DNA of 64,000 nt from Amanita rubescens (Eukaryota > Basidiomycota > Agaricomycetes > Agaricales > Amanitaceae). The position numbers and the translations under genes are program-made. Below the pieces are notes generated by a model that did not search any database, was not told the origin of the DNA, and saw only the letters and a list, made by a program, of their open reading frames with translations. This document shows, in pieces, positions 8,232 to 64,000 of the stretch (within the stretch, counting starts at the first letter, position 1; each line of letters starts with the position of its first letter). The stretch spans positions 275,454 through 339,453 of the forward strand of contig WION01000031.1 in NCBI GenBank assembly GCA_015039365.1, given 5' to 3'.

Positions 8232-9880
8232 TATACTCAGACGACGAGGAGTACTATGATGACGAAATGTTCGGTACAACCTAAAACGACGACGACAATG
8301 GTAAGTCACCTCGTTTATCGCGACACAGCAACCCTAATTCACGACGCTTTTCCAGTTTCTGACGATGAGATGGACATGGACGCAGATGGTGACGACTTCA
8401 AAGTCGCTCCGAAGACGATGCGTAAAGCCTACGAGATCGATTACCGTTCTTTGAGCCAGACAGAGGTCGAGAAACAGATGCGAGCGGACGTGGAGTATAT
8501 CTGCAACATTCTTGGCGTTGAGGTAGGTTGTGGCATCTTTCGTGTACTGTCCGTAACGCCTCTGACCGCTGGTCTACTTTTGCGACACATGTCCTGGAAC
8601 AAGGAACGCTTAATTGAGAATCCATCCAAGATTCTCGTTGAGGCGTGCATCAATCTACCCCAGACATACAGTTTGCAAACACAGAATCCTGTCAGGTCCA
8701 GCGGCTCCTCCACCTCTGCTTCCCGCCGTTCGACGAGATCCACTGCAAGCAAACTATTTGGACTTTCTGGTTCAAAACGGTCCCCTAGTACCACATCTTC
8801 CGTCTCGCATTCTCCATCCTCGTTACATGCTGTGCCGAGGTATACCAAATACACTCCTAAACTGGACGAGCCTTTCACATGTCCCATATACTATGACGAT
8901 TTGTCCGACATCACAACCCTTTTGCTTGACTGCGGACACACGTTCTGCTACACCTGCCTGTTGGAACATGTTTTTGGTTTCAAAGATTCGCGACGAAGGC
9001 GAACACGTCGTTCGCTATCAATTGGTGGCACCAGATCCGTTTGTCCGTGATATTCTGATTCCGACCGACGCATCTGCATCTGGGATCGATCCGGAACAAC
9101 AGAAGGAAAATGTACAGATCTGGGCACGTTTCCAAGAGTTGCTTGCACACAACTTTGTCGGGTCGAAAAAGGAGTTGAAGTATTGCCCCTACCCCGGTTG
9201 CACCAACACGGTTTCTTGCCCGTCCGCTGCGTCCAAGTTCAGCTTGACGAATTGTTCCCACTGTGTCTTGCGGCCCGCGAGGGGTTCCCGGTCTAGACGG
9301 TCCGAAAGAAATAGGGCCTACATTGGGTTTGGCGACGAAGGAACACAGGTTTTGCTTTGGCTGTACGATTGAAGATGATCACAGGCCAATTGTATGCGCT
9401 ATCGCGAAGATGTGGCTCAAGAAGTGCCGTGAGACGGCTAATTAGATCAAGAGCAATATGAAAGAGTGCGGCAACTGTCAGAGTACGATTGAGAAGAATG
9501 GAGGATGCAAGTAGGTGCTCCTGTGCTTCTCTACATGGAATAGTTGCTTGACCGAACCTTCCAGTCATATGACGTGCAAGAAGTGCAAGCATGAATTCTG
9601 TTGGGTGTGCATGGGTAAGTAATTTATGTTCGTAGTAGTTATAGCGCATATAGTGGCTAACGAGATGACAGGTCCGTGGAGTGAAACCGCATGGTACAGC
9701 TGTAACCGATATGACGAGAAAGCAGGGGTGGATACCCGAGATACTCAGAGTCGAAGCCGCGCGCGTCTGGAGCGATACTTACATGCAGGTTGTCTTGTCA
9801 TATATTACAATCGCTGGGCGAACCATGAACAATCTGCCAAGGTCTCGCGAGATCCGTATGCTAAGACACATCATCGCCCA
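8222..9880 (+). pseudogene. Ariadne-type RBR E3 ubiquitin ligase, decayed
   Basis: The order of parts is that of Ariadne RBR ligases: acidic N-terminus (YSDDEEYYDDEMF), UBA-like region (LSQTEVEKQMRADVEYICNI, then GLLLRHMSWNKERLIE), RING1 (CPIYYDD...CGHTFC), IBR (KYCPYPGCTNTVSCPSAASK...HRFCFGC), RING2 (KECGNCQSTIEKNGG, then HMTCKKCKHEFCWVC) and a fragment of the following domain (YYNRWANHEQSAK). Lesions: a frame stop at 8282-8284, a frame change near 8968-8975 in a T run, another between about 9215 and 9265, a TAG at about 9443 where Trp is expected (N-W-I-K), loss of a RING1 Cys (CPIYYDD for CPIC), and a missing stretch before LVAPDPF. Two introns with intact GT..AG flank HMTCKKC, showing a spliced ancestor. 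It cannot encode a working ligase. Confidence 0.85.
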
Positions 9881-10084
9881 ATCTGTTTTGACGTTACATT
9901 TGCACCCTCATCTCGCACTGTGCTTGATCGGAGCATGCTCATTCAGCCTGTGATTGAACCGCTGACGTTCACTCTTTTGGTCCTTCGCTGCGAAAAGCTT
10001 CCTTGGCTTCGAATAAGAGGGGGGTCGTTGTTGGACGTTGTTGGGTCACAGGTGGGATCAAAGGACTAATTCGGGCAGTGAGAG

Positions 10085-60955: not shown

Positions 60956-62213
60956 ATGGCAGAGACTGCTGGTGCACATGTATCAGGTATTTTGAAATAT
61001 AAAGGGTGGCCCCTTGTGCCCTGCAGAGACTGATGTGGGATATATCACAGTGCTTAAGGAACAATACAAATGCCCCCATTTTCGTGTTCTTATCATGGGA
61101 AGGGCCAATGCAGGCAAAACAACCATTCTTGAGAAGGTCTGTGGTGTAGAGAGTGGAACAGAACCTATCATTTATGACCAGAATGGTGAGTAAATCAAAC
61201 CCTCAGTTACTTATGTGTATTCAGTATTTAAGGTAAACAATTGCTTCCTTCCACAATAAATTTGACACCAACAATGGAGGTGAGTTGACTTGTGAGAACA
61301 AATGACTGGAACAGATGCAATAGATTATAGCGAGGGATTCATGATATCGAGCACCAAATTACATACCCTGGAAGTAACTTTATCTTCCATGACTCTCAGG
61401 GTTTTGAATCTGGTGCAAGTGAGGAGTTGGAGAATGTTTGGAGATTCATTGACAAGAGGTTAAGTGCAACTCGAGTTAAGGATCAATTACATGCAATCTG
61501 GTATTTTTTGTTGTTCATTCTTTACAACATTAGATGGTTATGCTTTTTATAGGTACTGCATACCCATGGACAGTCCTCGTCCTCTTCTGCCTGCAGAACT
61601 TGAATTTTTCACCAAAGGTATTGGGAAAGGTTAGTCCTTACTATTGTCAATATTTGGTTGAGTTGGCAAGCTGCCTCTCAAGCCTTCCTTGGAACTTTCC
61701 ACTAATTGAGACCTTTGCAGTGCCTTTGGTAGTGATATTCACCAAATTTGATGGTCAAATAATTCAAGAGTCTACTCAGTTGAATGAAGCTGAAGATAAG
61801 TGGGACAAGGCGAGAGAAAATGCTGATAAGACTTTTCAGGGAGTTTATCTTCCTAAAGTTCTGAGCACAAGATATCCCCCAAAAGCCTATGTGCGATTGG
61901 AAGGTGGAAATTAAAAAATATAATAACATATGGAAATCCTAAAGTTACCCAACAGATATGGACATTCCAGGGAATGACTGTCCAGAATTGACTGAGAAGA
62001 CTGCTGATGTAATTGATGATGCTAGTCTTCTGCAGTTGTTTGTCTCAACACAGATGAACAATGTCAACATCTGCATCAAAGTTGCACTTGAGTAAGAATC
62101 ACATTATGAACATTGATCTGAATTTCACAATCTTTAGATCTGTTTTAGCTGCAAAAGATTCCAGATGGAACATAGTTTTTATGTTGGTTCTGATCAACTT
62201 TCCACATTATTGG
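60956..62213 (+). CDS. AIG1-like GTPase (G-domain protein), 3' end continues into microexon array
   Basis: Exons 60956-60986, 61027-61185, 61233-61279, 61331-61500, 61553-61629, 61721-61903, 61956-62091 and 62138-62213 give 293 codons, ending exactly in phase 0 at a GTGAGT donor. P-loop GRANAGKT at about residues 31-38 (FRVLIMGRANAGKTTIL); switch region with a candidate Thr (LTPTMERGIHDI); FHDSQGFESG in the position of the G3 DxxG motif; IWYCIPM; and TKFD in VVIFTKFDG as the G4 base-recognition motif. These are marks of the AIG1-like GTP-binding family expanded in basidiomycetes. Likely a cytosolic or membrane-associated GTPase of unknown role. One downstream path is a 12-nt exon (62271-62282) and then the 3-nt exon array. 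The other is a longer last exon (62271-62420) ending in TGA, giving 342 aa. Confidence 0.85.
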
Positions 62214-62270
62214 GTGAGTCTGTGGCATATACTAACAAGAATGTCAAACACTTACTAAGATAAACACCAG

Positions 62271-62420
62271 AGTATTTTAGCAGTATGTTCCTTCAACACA
62301 AATGAGTCATGCAAACAGCTGAAGCATCTAATAGGTTGTAAGTATAATGACATGCCCTTGCATGCTTATGTGCTCAATCATAGCACATGGAACAGGATGA
62401 ACCAAATGTGGGAAATATGA
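62271..62420 (+). CDS. Alternative terminal exon of the AIG1-like GTPase
   Basis: After the phase-0 donor at 62214 and acceptor CACCAG at 62265-62270, the frame stays open for 49 codons (SILAVCSFNTNESCKQLKHL at its start, NRMNQMWEI at its end) to TGA at 62418-62420. A GTATGT donor at 62283 sits inside it. Using that donor makes only SILA coding and opens the path into the microexon array; not using it terminates the protein. Confidence 0.5.
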   Translation, partial: SILAVCSFNTNESCKQLKHLIGCKYNDMPLHAYVLNHSTWNRMNQMWEI

Positions 62421-63979
62421 CTTGATATTGCAGTGTTTTAGAAGTTCTAATCACATCACATCCGAACATTACCAACAGCTTGTGTGTGATGCCACAGCCT
62501 TATTTCCTTGGGGGGTCCAATCATACCTCATTATAACCAACAGGAAGTGAGTGATACTGCAATATTTTCTCCTTAACAGTTGATCATATTATGTACAGCA
62601 TGTAAGTAATCCTGCAATGTGTTTCCTCCAGACAGCCTGATCATATTTCTGACATGATTAATAGTCAGTAAGTAACACAAAGTTTTTTTCCTGCCAGGCA
62701 GTCTAATCATGTCACATAACCAACAGCAAGTAAATGACTCAGCAGTTGTCATTTTTTCACCAGGCAGTCTAATGGAATCTTGTCTTATGATTATTAGACA
62801 GTGAGTAAGACTGCCATTTTGCTTTGGCAGACAATCTGATCATGGCTCATGCTGTGACCAATAGCTTGCAAGTTACCCACCTTTTTACCAGGAATTACAT
62901 TCAAATCCCACCCCAATTCCAACAGAAGGTGAGTGGCCAGGAGTCCTTGGTTTTCTGCATCACTAAATCAATTTCTGTATTATAATATAACCAACAGCAA
63001 GTGAGGGCAATTTTGCTGTGTTCTATTGAGCAATGTAACCACATCCGCTGTATCCCTTGTCAACAGAAGGTCCATAAGTGATGCTGCATTACTTTGTTGT
63101 CAGGCAGTCTGATACATCTCACCCATGATTGACAGATTGTGAGTGATGATGTGATATTTTTCTTGTGGGTGATCTCATCATGCCTCATCCCATGGGCAAT
63201 AGCTTGTGAGTGACACTCAGGCTAGTGCCACTTCCTACATCATGTCTCATGACAAATAGCAAGTGAGTGACTCTGGAGTGCTTTTCAGTCAGGCAATCTG
63301 ATCACATAACCAACAAGGGGGTGAGTAGCCTCAGTGTTGCATGACACTTTGATCACATATCATTAATGAGTCACAGGGGGTAAGTGACATGTCTTTCAAG
63401 TAAAAGTAAATAGCTTGATCACATCACTCCCATGACCATCAACAGCAAGTGAGTAAAACTACTTCTTCCAGGTTGTCTGATCACACACAACCAACAGATT
63501 GTAAGTGGTGCTCATTTTTTCACATATCCTGAACACCCCTCATGCTATAAGCAACAGGGAGTGAGCAAAATGTTCCTGCCAGGGTGAATGATTACAATTT
63601 GTTCCATGACAATAGTGGGCAAGTGACACTGCCTTTAATCTCACTACTTATCTTATCATACATATCCAACAGCAAGTGAGTGAAATTTCAGTTATGTTTT
63701 TTAAAGGCACTCAGATCACCTGTCATTCAGTCTGTTAGTGACACTAGAGTCCTTTTACCAGACATTCTAATTCACATATTGGCAATAAACAGGTTGTAAG
63801 TGCTAGCACAGTTTTTTTCAAAAGCACTCTGATAATATCATGTACAATTCCAAAGCTTGTAAGTGATCATGTATTGTTTTTTAGCAGGAGTATGATCCCA
63901 TCCCATGCTGTGTTAACAGGAGGTCTGTGATTTTCTGCAAAGCAGTCTGATCAAATTCAATCTTTATGACCACCAGGAA
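62335..63979 (+). other. Array of at least 26 candidate 3-nt microexons
   Basis: Each unit has an acceptor (mostly CAACAG, AATAG or ACAG), exactly three bases, then a donor (mostly GTGAGT/GTAAGT). Starts of the triplets: GTT 62335, CTT 62479, GAA 62544, CAT 62599, TCA 62665, CAA 62727, ACA 62798, CTT 62865, AAG 62926, CAA 62998, AAG 63067, ATT 63136, CTT 63203, CAA 63260, GGG 63318, GGG 63377, CAA 63446, ATT 63498, GGA 63558, TGG 63616, CAA 63673, TCT 63731, GTT 63793, CTT 63856, GAG 63920, GAA 63977. Intervals (introns) are 49-69 nt, except 141 nt before 62479. Most have CTGAT/CTAAT or TGATCA 20-30 nt before the acceptor, which fits a fungal branch site. Units otherwise differ greatly. Two donors are GC (62868, 63619); weak donors follow the triplets at 62727, 63067 and 63920. 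The array runs off the window end. No RNA evidence; it could instead be a tandem repeat that only looks like splice sites. Confidence 0.6.
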
Positions 63980-64000
63980 GTGAGTAGGAGTACATGCTTT

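Follow-up and report, generated by a model that had tools for sequence, protein, structure and literature searches.

A P-loop GTPase gene at the end of a contig of Amanita rubescens very probably encodes a linker of tens of codons in which each codon is its own 3-nt exon. Homologous introns, each about 60 nt long, separate these exons, which would be spliced together in order and in phase 0. This linker leads to a C-terminal helical part of the protein. The DNA analyzed (the window, 64,000 nt) comprises bases 275,454 to 339,453 of contig C235 (339,453 bases), in an assembly totaling 75.7 Mb. The reading of the array as coding sequence draws on the AG-codon-GTRAGT regularity, the conservation between copies, the absence of stop triplets, a consensus common to the introns, and the match between a sister array on contig C1 and a family protein, P0016.

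The array in the window consists of 26 three-nucleotide exons, the same number as in the original prediction, plus one 12-nt exon, and extends from position 62335 to 63979 (Table 1); the contig end falls inside the array, which is thus incomplete at its 3' side. The motif AG-N3-GTRAG was seen 20 times in 62214-64000, compared to a mean of 0.26 and a maximum of 2 in 500 dinucleotide shuffles, and a chance origin was therefore ruled out. Every other spacing from k = 0 to k = 12 occurred 0 to 2 times in the array region, so that the anticipated excess at k = 3 over shuffled DNA was borne out. Among strict donors on the + strand, an AG stood exactly 3 nt upstream at 20 of 23 in 62214-64000 and at 10 of 188 in the remainder of the window (positions 1 to 62,213). 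The list of 26 exons includes units with weaker donors (GTGTGT, GTAAAT, GTCCAT, GTTAGT, and GTCTGT), which were accepted because the same position was occupied in related copies, and two with GC donors (the exons at 62865-62867 and 63616-63618). Tandem Repeats Finder detected no repeat in the window array, as the units have diverged. With their AG acceptors and GT or GC donors, the exons fit the definition of microexons as coding exons that measure 3 to 15 (up to 30) nt and are flanked by canonical splice sites; that such triplets are coding was shown at the sister locus C1.

Intron lengths of 49 to 69 nt with a single exception of 141 nt had been predicted. The short lengths stood (49 to 71 nt), but the supposed 141-nt intron is divided into introns of 58 and 71 nt by the 12-nt exon GATGAACCAAAT, and the exception is instead the first intron, of 121 nt. 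An alternative first unit, AG|CA|GT at about 62279-62282, seems less likely than the 121-nt intron, as it would be a 2-nt exon that breaks the phase. The TGA at 62,418, at which transcripts might have ended, is in an intronic position.

In the spliced frame, the N terminus of the window protein runs into the P-loop GTPase. The last GTPase exon ends in phase 0, and therefore every triplet of the array is a whole codon. A public A. rubescens protein, P0001 (F5887DRAFT_887002), resembles the GTPase exons of the window, minus one exon. The gene had been described as AIG1-like, a label that was not supported: PF04548 (AIG1) gave no match at an E value of ≤1 for the window protein and none at ≤0.01 in 31 family members. 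Pfam MMR_HSR1 was found in 27 of these 31 members, and the exon pieces gave weak P-loop matches only.

Table 1. Exons of the GTPase gene and of the codon-exon array in the window
Feature	Position	Strand	Remark
GTPase exon 1 (MAETAGAHVS..)	60956..60986	+	spliced frame
GTPase exon 2 (P-loop GRANAGKT)	61027..61185	+	
GTPase exon 3	61233..61279	+	
GTPase exon 4 (FIFHDSQG)	61331..61500	+	
GTPase exon 5	61553..61629	+	
GTPase exon 6 (TKFD)	61721..61903	+	
GTPase exon 7	61956..62091	+	
Last GTPase exon, end ..FPHYW (CAT TAT TGG), phase 0	62138..62213	+	
3-nt exon GTT (V)	62335..62337	+	present in all 3 aligned copies
12-nt exon DEPN (DEKN in copy C432)	62396..62407	+	
3-nt exon CTT (L)	62479..62481	+	
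3-nt exon GAA (E)	62544..62546	+	
3-nt exon CAT (H)	62599..62601	+	
3-nt exon TCA (S)	62665..62667	+	
3-nt exon CAA (Q)	62727..62729	+	
3-nt exon ACA (T)	62798..62800	+	
3-nt exon CTT (L), GC donor	62865..62867	+	GT donor in C192
3-nt exon AAG (K)	62926..62928	+	
3-nt exon CAA (Q)	62998..63000	+	
3-nt exon AAG (K), weak donor GTCCAT	63067..63069	+	same in 3 copies
3-nt exon ATT (I)	63136..63138	+	
3-nt exon CTT (L)	63203..63205	+	
3-nt exon CAA (Q)	63260..63262	+	
3-nt exon GGG (G)	63318..63320	+	
3-nt exon GGG (G)	63377..63379	+	
3-nt exon CAA (Q)	63446..63448	+	
3-nt exon ATT (I)	63498..63500	+	
3-nt exon GGA (G)	63558..63560	+	
3-nt exon TGG (W), GC donor in all 3 aligned copies	63616..63618	+	
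3-nt exon CAA (Q)	63673..63675	+	
3-nt exon TCT (S)	63731..63733	+	
3-nt exon GTT (V)	63793..63795	+	
3-nt exon CTT (L)	63856..63858	+	
3-nt exon GAG (E), weak donor GTCTGT	63920..63922	+	AG|GAG|GTC in 3 copies
3-nt exon GAA (E), last before contig end	63977..63979	+	array continues off contig

Copies of the array were found elsewhere in the assembly. Contigs C107, C231, and C470 share the last 1,055 bases of the window contig with 2 mismatches, and the end stretch is near-identical in C372; related arrays are present in C192 and C767 (87% identical) and in C432, C427, and C56 (80%). These copies need not be paralogs and may instead represent alleles or assembly duplicates. The arrays in C192, C767, and C432 extend for about 5.5 kb. 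A three-way alignment of C372, C192, and C432 gave about 88 units by eye, and automatic chaining gave 81 units in C192, 81 in C767, and 77 in C432. On the 3' side of the array, a further conserved CTT exon precedes the coding sequence TGLLSLFG.., which resembles ILPGLLSLFQ.. of P0016. What had been taken for a terminal tail is a linker inside the protein, with a conserved C-terminal part (LLSLFG..SESLPSD..FLYD) after it. Near the 3' end of the window-type copies, the exon that should lie between the pieces FEET and MxxL(A/V)KLSF was looked for and was not found. The final exon of the family (..AKLSF..SESLPSD..FLYD) matched the assembly at least 150 times (150 scored of 217 candidates, assembly duplicates included).

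The expectation that the same arrangement would lie behind other genes of the family was confirmed, since arrays were present at all five loci reached through coding exons, four of them (C101, C117, C31, and C56b) picked nonrandomly from the list of C-terminal exons and the fifth (C1) reached via P0016. Thirteen further loci were found via array DNA (C372, C192, C767, C432, C427, C56, C276, C13, C225, C604, C278, C776, and C235b). When AG-N(k)-GT spacings above score limits were counted on both strands of L009 to L019 and L023 to L032, there were 911 at k = 3, compared to 3 to 32 for each other k from 0 to 15, a count that includes near-identical copies (three further near-identical loci were left out) and that uses matrices trained on k = 3 units, with acceptor and donor scored separately.

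In C372, an array intron is interrupted by a 9,630-bp insertion that starts with TG, ends with CA, and is flanked by a 5-bp target duplication (GACAC); its terminal repeats are about 520 bp long and 97.5% identical, as in an LTR-type element (L009/L010). An insertion is also present in the arrays of C107, C231, and C470, where the motif positions are the same as in C372, the copy in which the element was measured. Since these contigs share the end of the window, the window's own copy of the array may be interrupted past the contig end, and its gene copy may be one broken by a retrotransposon. In copy C192, no retrotransposon was seen. On the minus strand of C767, a second, different codon-exon array was observed about 10 kb downstream of the first and on the same strand (L014 reverse complement, 8505-9943 and on). 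An AG directly before GTAAGT or GTCAGT was seen just past the arrays of C1 (about L033:4597) and C192 (L011:8179); each such AG|GT site is possibly a zero-length exon or a recursive splice point.

Comparison of C192 with C372 and C432 over 79 units, chosen by their sites in C192, revealed a conserved splice anatomy. Conservation per base was 100% and 100% at the acceptor AG, 98.7% and 98.1% at the donor GT, 94.5% and 92.5% at donor positions +3 to +6, and about 85% and 80% in mid-intron, for C372 and C432, respectively. The splice cores make up 14.9% of the alignment columns, yet only 11 of the 542 gap columns (C372) and 29 of the 588 (C432) fell within them. The copies therefore show introns that drift and acquire indels while their sites are retained, as the original prediction had it. 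A few units had lost a site in a single copy: an acceptor is missing once in C192, and C432 lacks one acceptor as well as one donor. Whole units also differ, with C432 lacking one CAA unit and carrying an extra GAA unit, and some array units in the related copies appear to code for two residues. Codon positions 1, 2, and 3 were conserved at 87, 87, and 92% (C372) and 77, 83, and 87% (C432) relative to C192, which is not above the introns; thus, there was no signal of purifying selection on the residues in the window family. Conserved sites with codons conserved no better than the introns are as expected if selection acts on the removability of the introns and on the frame and if the linker is tolerant or changing.

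The triplets contained no stops (0 of 698 in 15 array segments, versus 36.7 expected from positional composition), a count in which the copies are not independent, chains take the higher-scoring register at overlaps, and rare off-register TGA readings are uncounted. Read-through of the introns was rejected: among the 501 nontandem array introns, which averaged 60 nt, lengths modulo 3 were 0, 1, and 2 in 152, 184, and 165 cases.

Alignment of 150 of these nontandem array introns gave a 63-nt consensus, GTGAGTgAcAcTgcA.ttTTTTTttccAgg.AgTCT.ATcAcATCTcATcccATGACcAACAG, which, apart from the ends, was largely abolished by shuffling the intron interiors. A profile (HMM) of the intron matched the window 22 times, all 22 within the array. 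In the genome, at least 19 of 25 clusters of the consensus were upstream of a family C-terminal exon among the matches listed (judged by eye: same strand, within 11 kb). From this common consensus and from the positions of the clusters, the array introns appear to be descendants of one ancestral intron, mainly in the GTPase family.

Three loci carry a largely exact 65-nt tandem unit, namely, L023 (C13), L025 (C225), and L026 (C604). Mean pairwise diversity of codon versus intron was 0.326 versus 0.0104 in C13 (43 units here; 26 units after the gap rule in the stop count), 0.54 versus 0.10 in C225 (40 units), and 0.462 versus 0.0074 in C604 (26 units). The codons were thus 5 to 62 times more variable than the surrounding introns, which are nearly identical in C13 and C604 and alike in C225, and the most variable codon position exceeded every intron column. 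Such a pattern could reflect either diversifying selection on codons with homogenization of the introns or the copying of introns into an older coding sequence. The variation in C13, which is mostly at codon position 2 (CAA, CTA, and CGA), favors change after duplication. Together, the tandem arrays suggest that intron-plus-codon units duplicate and then diversify.

The copying alternative would have introner-like mobile introns inserted between preexisting codons, rather than units duplicated. It would account for the single homologous intron family and for the nearly identical introns that separate differing codons in C13 and C604. We consider it rather unlikely because the intron copies of the window are confined to the array, whole units have been gained and lost between copies, and the position-2 variation in C13 resembles change from one ancestral unit. 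It would also require introns to have entered at exact 3-nt intervals and always in phase 0, for which we know of no cause.

The strongest evidence that the triplets are coding came from P0016, a 478-amino-acid family member on a JGI contig of 1,486 nt. A contig of this length leaves P0016 no room for introns, and the sequence is therefore most likely a metatranscriptome cDNA. The nearest locus in the assembly, C1:29740-30945 (L033), is 86 to 90% identical to P0016 over two GTPase stretches, and an array is present downstream of them. A script that considered nothing but splice scores and spacing chained 48 triplets of this array, and the peptide that they encode, DWESADNAAAKERQYYDDGVHAGYGYYGGEKISEKERDKRKDFVEREI, was identical to the linker of P0016 at 40 of 48 positions (read off the printed alignment), with two gap columns and a score of 210. 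In comparison, 1,000 residue shuffles scored a mean of 32.8 and a maximum of 63, and 14 register shifts (1 to 9 bases off) scored at most 35; reading of the triplets in the two other frames was ruled out by scores of 21 to 22. One gap column falls at a low-scoring TTT unit, and the other falls beside a C1 unit that is one base off length. Because of this off-length unit and because the C-terminal exon of C1 is frame disrupted, C1 may itself be in decay. When the C1 linker (up to three residues set by judgment) was searched against 5.8 billion proteins, P0016 alone was returned, with an E value of 4e-34 and 82% identity over 100% of the 76-residue region. A contiguous P0016 linker was not found in the A. 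rubescens assembly at an E value of ≤10, which is weak evidence. These results indicated that triplets of a sister locus, taken as in-phase single-codon exons as originally proposed, reproduce a protein encoded without introns.

Other arrays were compared in the same manner. When 15 array segments were set against 11 transcript-like tails, C1, C776, C604, C225, and C278 each matched one, with z scores of 6 to 24 (6 to 10 for the latter four), and the other 10 segments (C372a, C372b, C192, C432, C13 [reduced to its 3' 26 units], C101, C117, C31, C56b, and C235b) had z scores of ≤3.3. Peptides of the window copies (C372, C192, and C432) stayed below a z score of 2 against all 11 tails. Since the window array has no transcript-like match, splicing of the window gene is deduced from the sister gene and from conservation.

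The match between C1 and P0016 also bears on how the array is spliced. The original prediction envisaged a combinatorial tail, in which regulated skipping of subsets of the 3-nt exons would give many variants of the linker. Every window unit is in phase, so any subset would keep the frame, and splice scores vary among units. This reading is nevertheless improbable, since the one full match has its triplets in order with no block skipped (48 chained triplets versus 50 residues), which makes constitutive inclusion the simpler reading; moreover, no alternative isoform was recognized among the family proteins, a collection that is not an isoform survey. It is highly improbable that splicing instead takes out the array as a single large intron or a few of them, with the 3-nt units serving as decoys or ratchet points. 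A public A. rubescens model, P0080, does jump from FPHYWV to the C-terminal part, and the AG|GT sites just past two arrays would be in keeping with such removal; however, P0080 is a gene model and not a transcript, the joined triplets equal the P0016 coding sequence at most positions, and the triplets avoid stops. Finally, a noncoding satellite with splice-like motifs arising by chance, which would fit the homology of the units and the 65-nt tandem repeats in three loci, was rejected given the conserved splice dinucleotides, the location of at least 19 of 25 intron clusters upstream of family C-terminal exons, and the C1-P0016 match, which for C1 is a contradiction.

A predicted structure of P0016 (31-sequence alignment; mean pLDDT of 79.5) showed a G domain and a C-terminal helical part, both mostly confident, and residues 316 to 359, which cover most of the triplet-matched stretch (326 to 375), fell below a pLDDT of 50. 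The linker is thus probably flexible and disordered, connecting the GTPase domain to a C-terminal helical bundle, and in a flexible linker one-residue changes would be tolerable. By rank, the nearest solved folds were dynamin-like and immunity-related GTPases, matched weakly and without indicating a clear family; any role in recognition or defence is speculative.

An FPHxW-type motif was present in 45 of 121 family proteins, 35 of which end within 52 residues of it. Only six family proteins have at least 120 residues after FPHxW, and all six are on intron-free JGI contigs of 1.4 to 1.7 kb. A protein search with the linker and C-terminal part of the window family returned only P0121, a public model, of which the last exon is taken to be true and the remainder to be misread array sequence. 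Public models P0019, P0076, P0112, and P0121 appear to read into array introns and then to stop or continue wrongly; in P0076, for instance, ..NW is followed by VSD, the translation of GTGAGTGA. The GTPase family thus seems to be widely misannotated. Protein models ending after FPHxW suggest that arrays may occur in other Amanita species as well. The predicted proteins P0105 (Hebeloma), P0115 (Lactifluus), and P0118 (Mycena) end 0 to 21 residues after FPxxW, and family genes in these genera may also contain arrays.

Intron definition applies to short fungal introns. By this route, each short intron of the array would be recognized separately and neighboring introns would be removed one after another, so that exon size would be irrelevant; all triplets would be joined in order as adjacent introns leave, with constitutive inclusion. 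The anatomy of the arrays further suggests that unequal exchange duplicates and deletes the intron-plus-codon unit, which is about 65 bp long. Each gain or loss of a unit would then lengthen or shorten the protein by one residue with the frame intact, and some genes would be subject to selection or mutation bias that diversifies the codon while the introns stay alike. More tentatively, and with less than even confidence, we propose a codon-cassette system, in which the spliceosome would build a hypervariable segment residue by residue from interchangeable units, with the introns as homogenized spacers, so that codons could be added, deleted, and reshuffled in frame by recombination. The linker might then be an evolvable region of the GTPase family, possibly for self/nonself or defence recognition.

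If the codon-by-codon splicing of the linker is right, tens of consecutive introns split by single codons are accurately spliced in one mRNA, which would be a direct test both of the lower limit of exon size and of intron definition and would account for the tendency of public family models to stop at the array. It would also suggest a mode of protein evolution in which one amino acid is gained or lost per recombination event with no frameshift.

In the excerpts of the open-access PMC literature covered, no array of consecutive single-codon exons was described; the chemistry of the splicing would be that of the ordinary spliceosome. A 2026 review of noncanonical splicing gives microexons as 3 to 15 nt and does not mention arrays in the passages covered (PMC13149111). 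Very short exons are known from animals and plants, such as a 3-bp exon in homothorax of Drosophila (PMC7392893) and 1-nt exons in the plant genes APC11 and VPS55 (PMC8831610). Like the A. rubescens units, such microexons have canonical splice sites and are missed by annotation and aligners; in the cases covered, however, they occur one per gene or, at the most, as a neighboring pair (of 5 and 12 nt [PMC8831610]), whereas in A. rubescens dozens of single codons follow one another. The microexon genes (MEGs) of schistosomes, which encode secreted proteins, share with this family the possession of many short exons, with 10 to 20 per gene, mostly multiples of 3 nt, of 6 to 81 bp (3 to 81 bp in the abstract) and mostly of 15 bp, separated by introns of 0.1 to 5 kb (PMC10526429); in contrast, the A. 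rubescens genes encode GTPases and have 3-nt exons and introns of about 50 to 70 nt. Among fungi, the Xlr2 paper on Trichoderma virens calls functional microexons previously undescribed in filamentous fungi (PMC11121469), and the Xlr2 microexon is a single regulated exon rather than an array. The lipS gene of Dactylellina haptotyla has 3-nt exons, as here, but only two of them and in no array (PMC5639578). Lastly, fungal introner-like elements are, like the array introns of A. rubescens, families of near-identical introns; they are found in unrelated genes genome-wide (PMC4457414), whereas the array introns appear to be stacked mainly at one place of one gene family.
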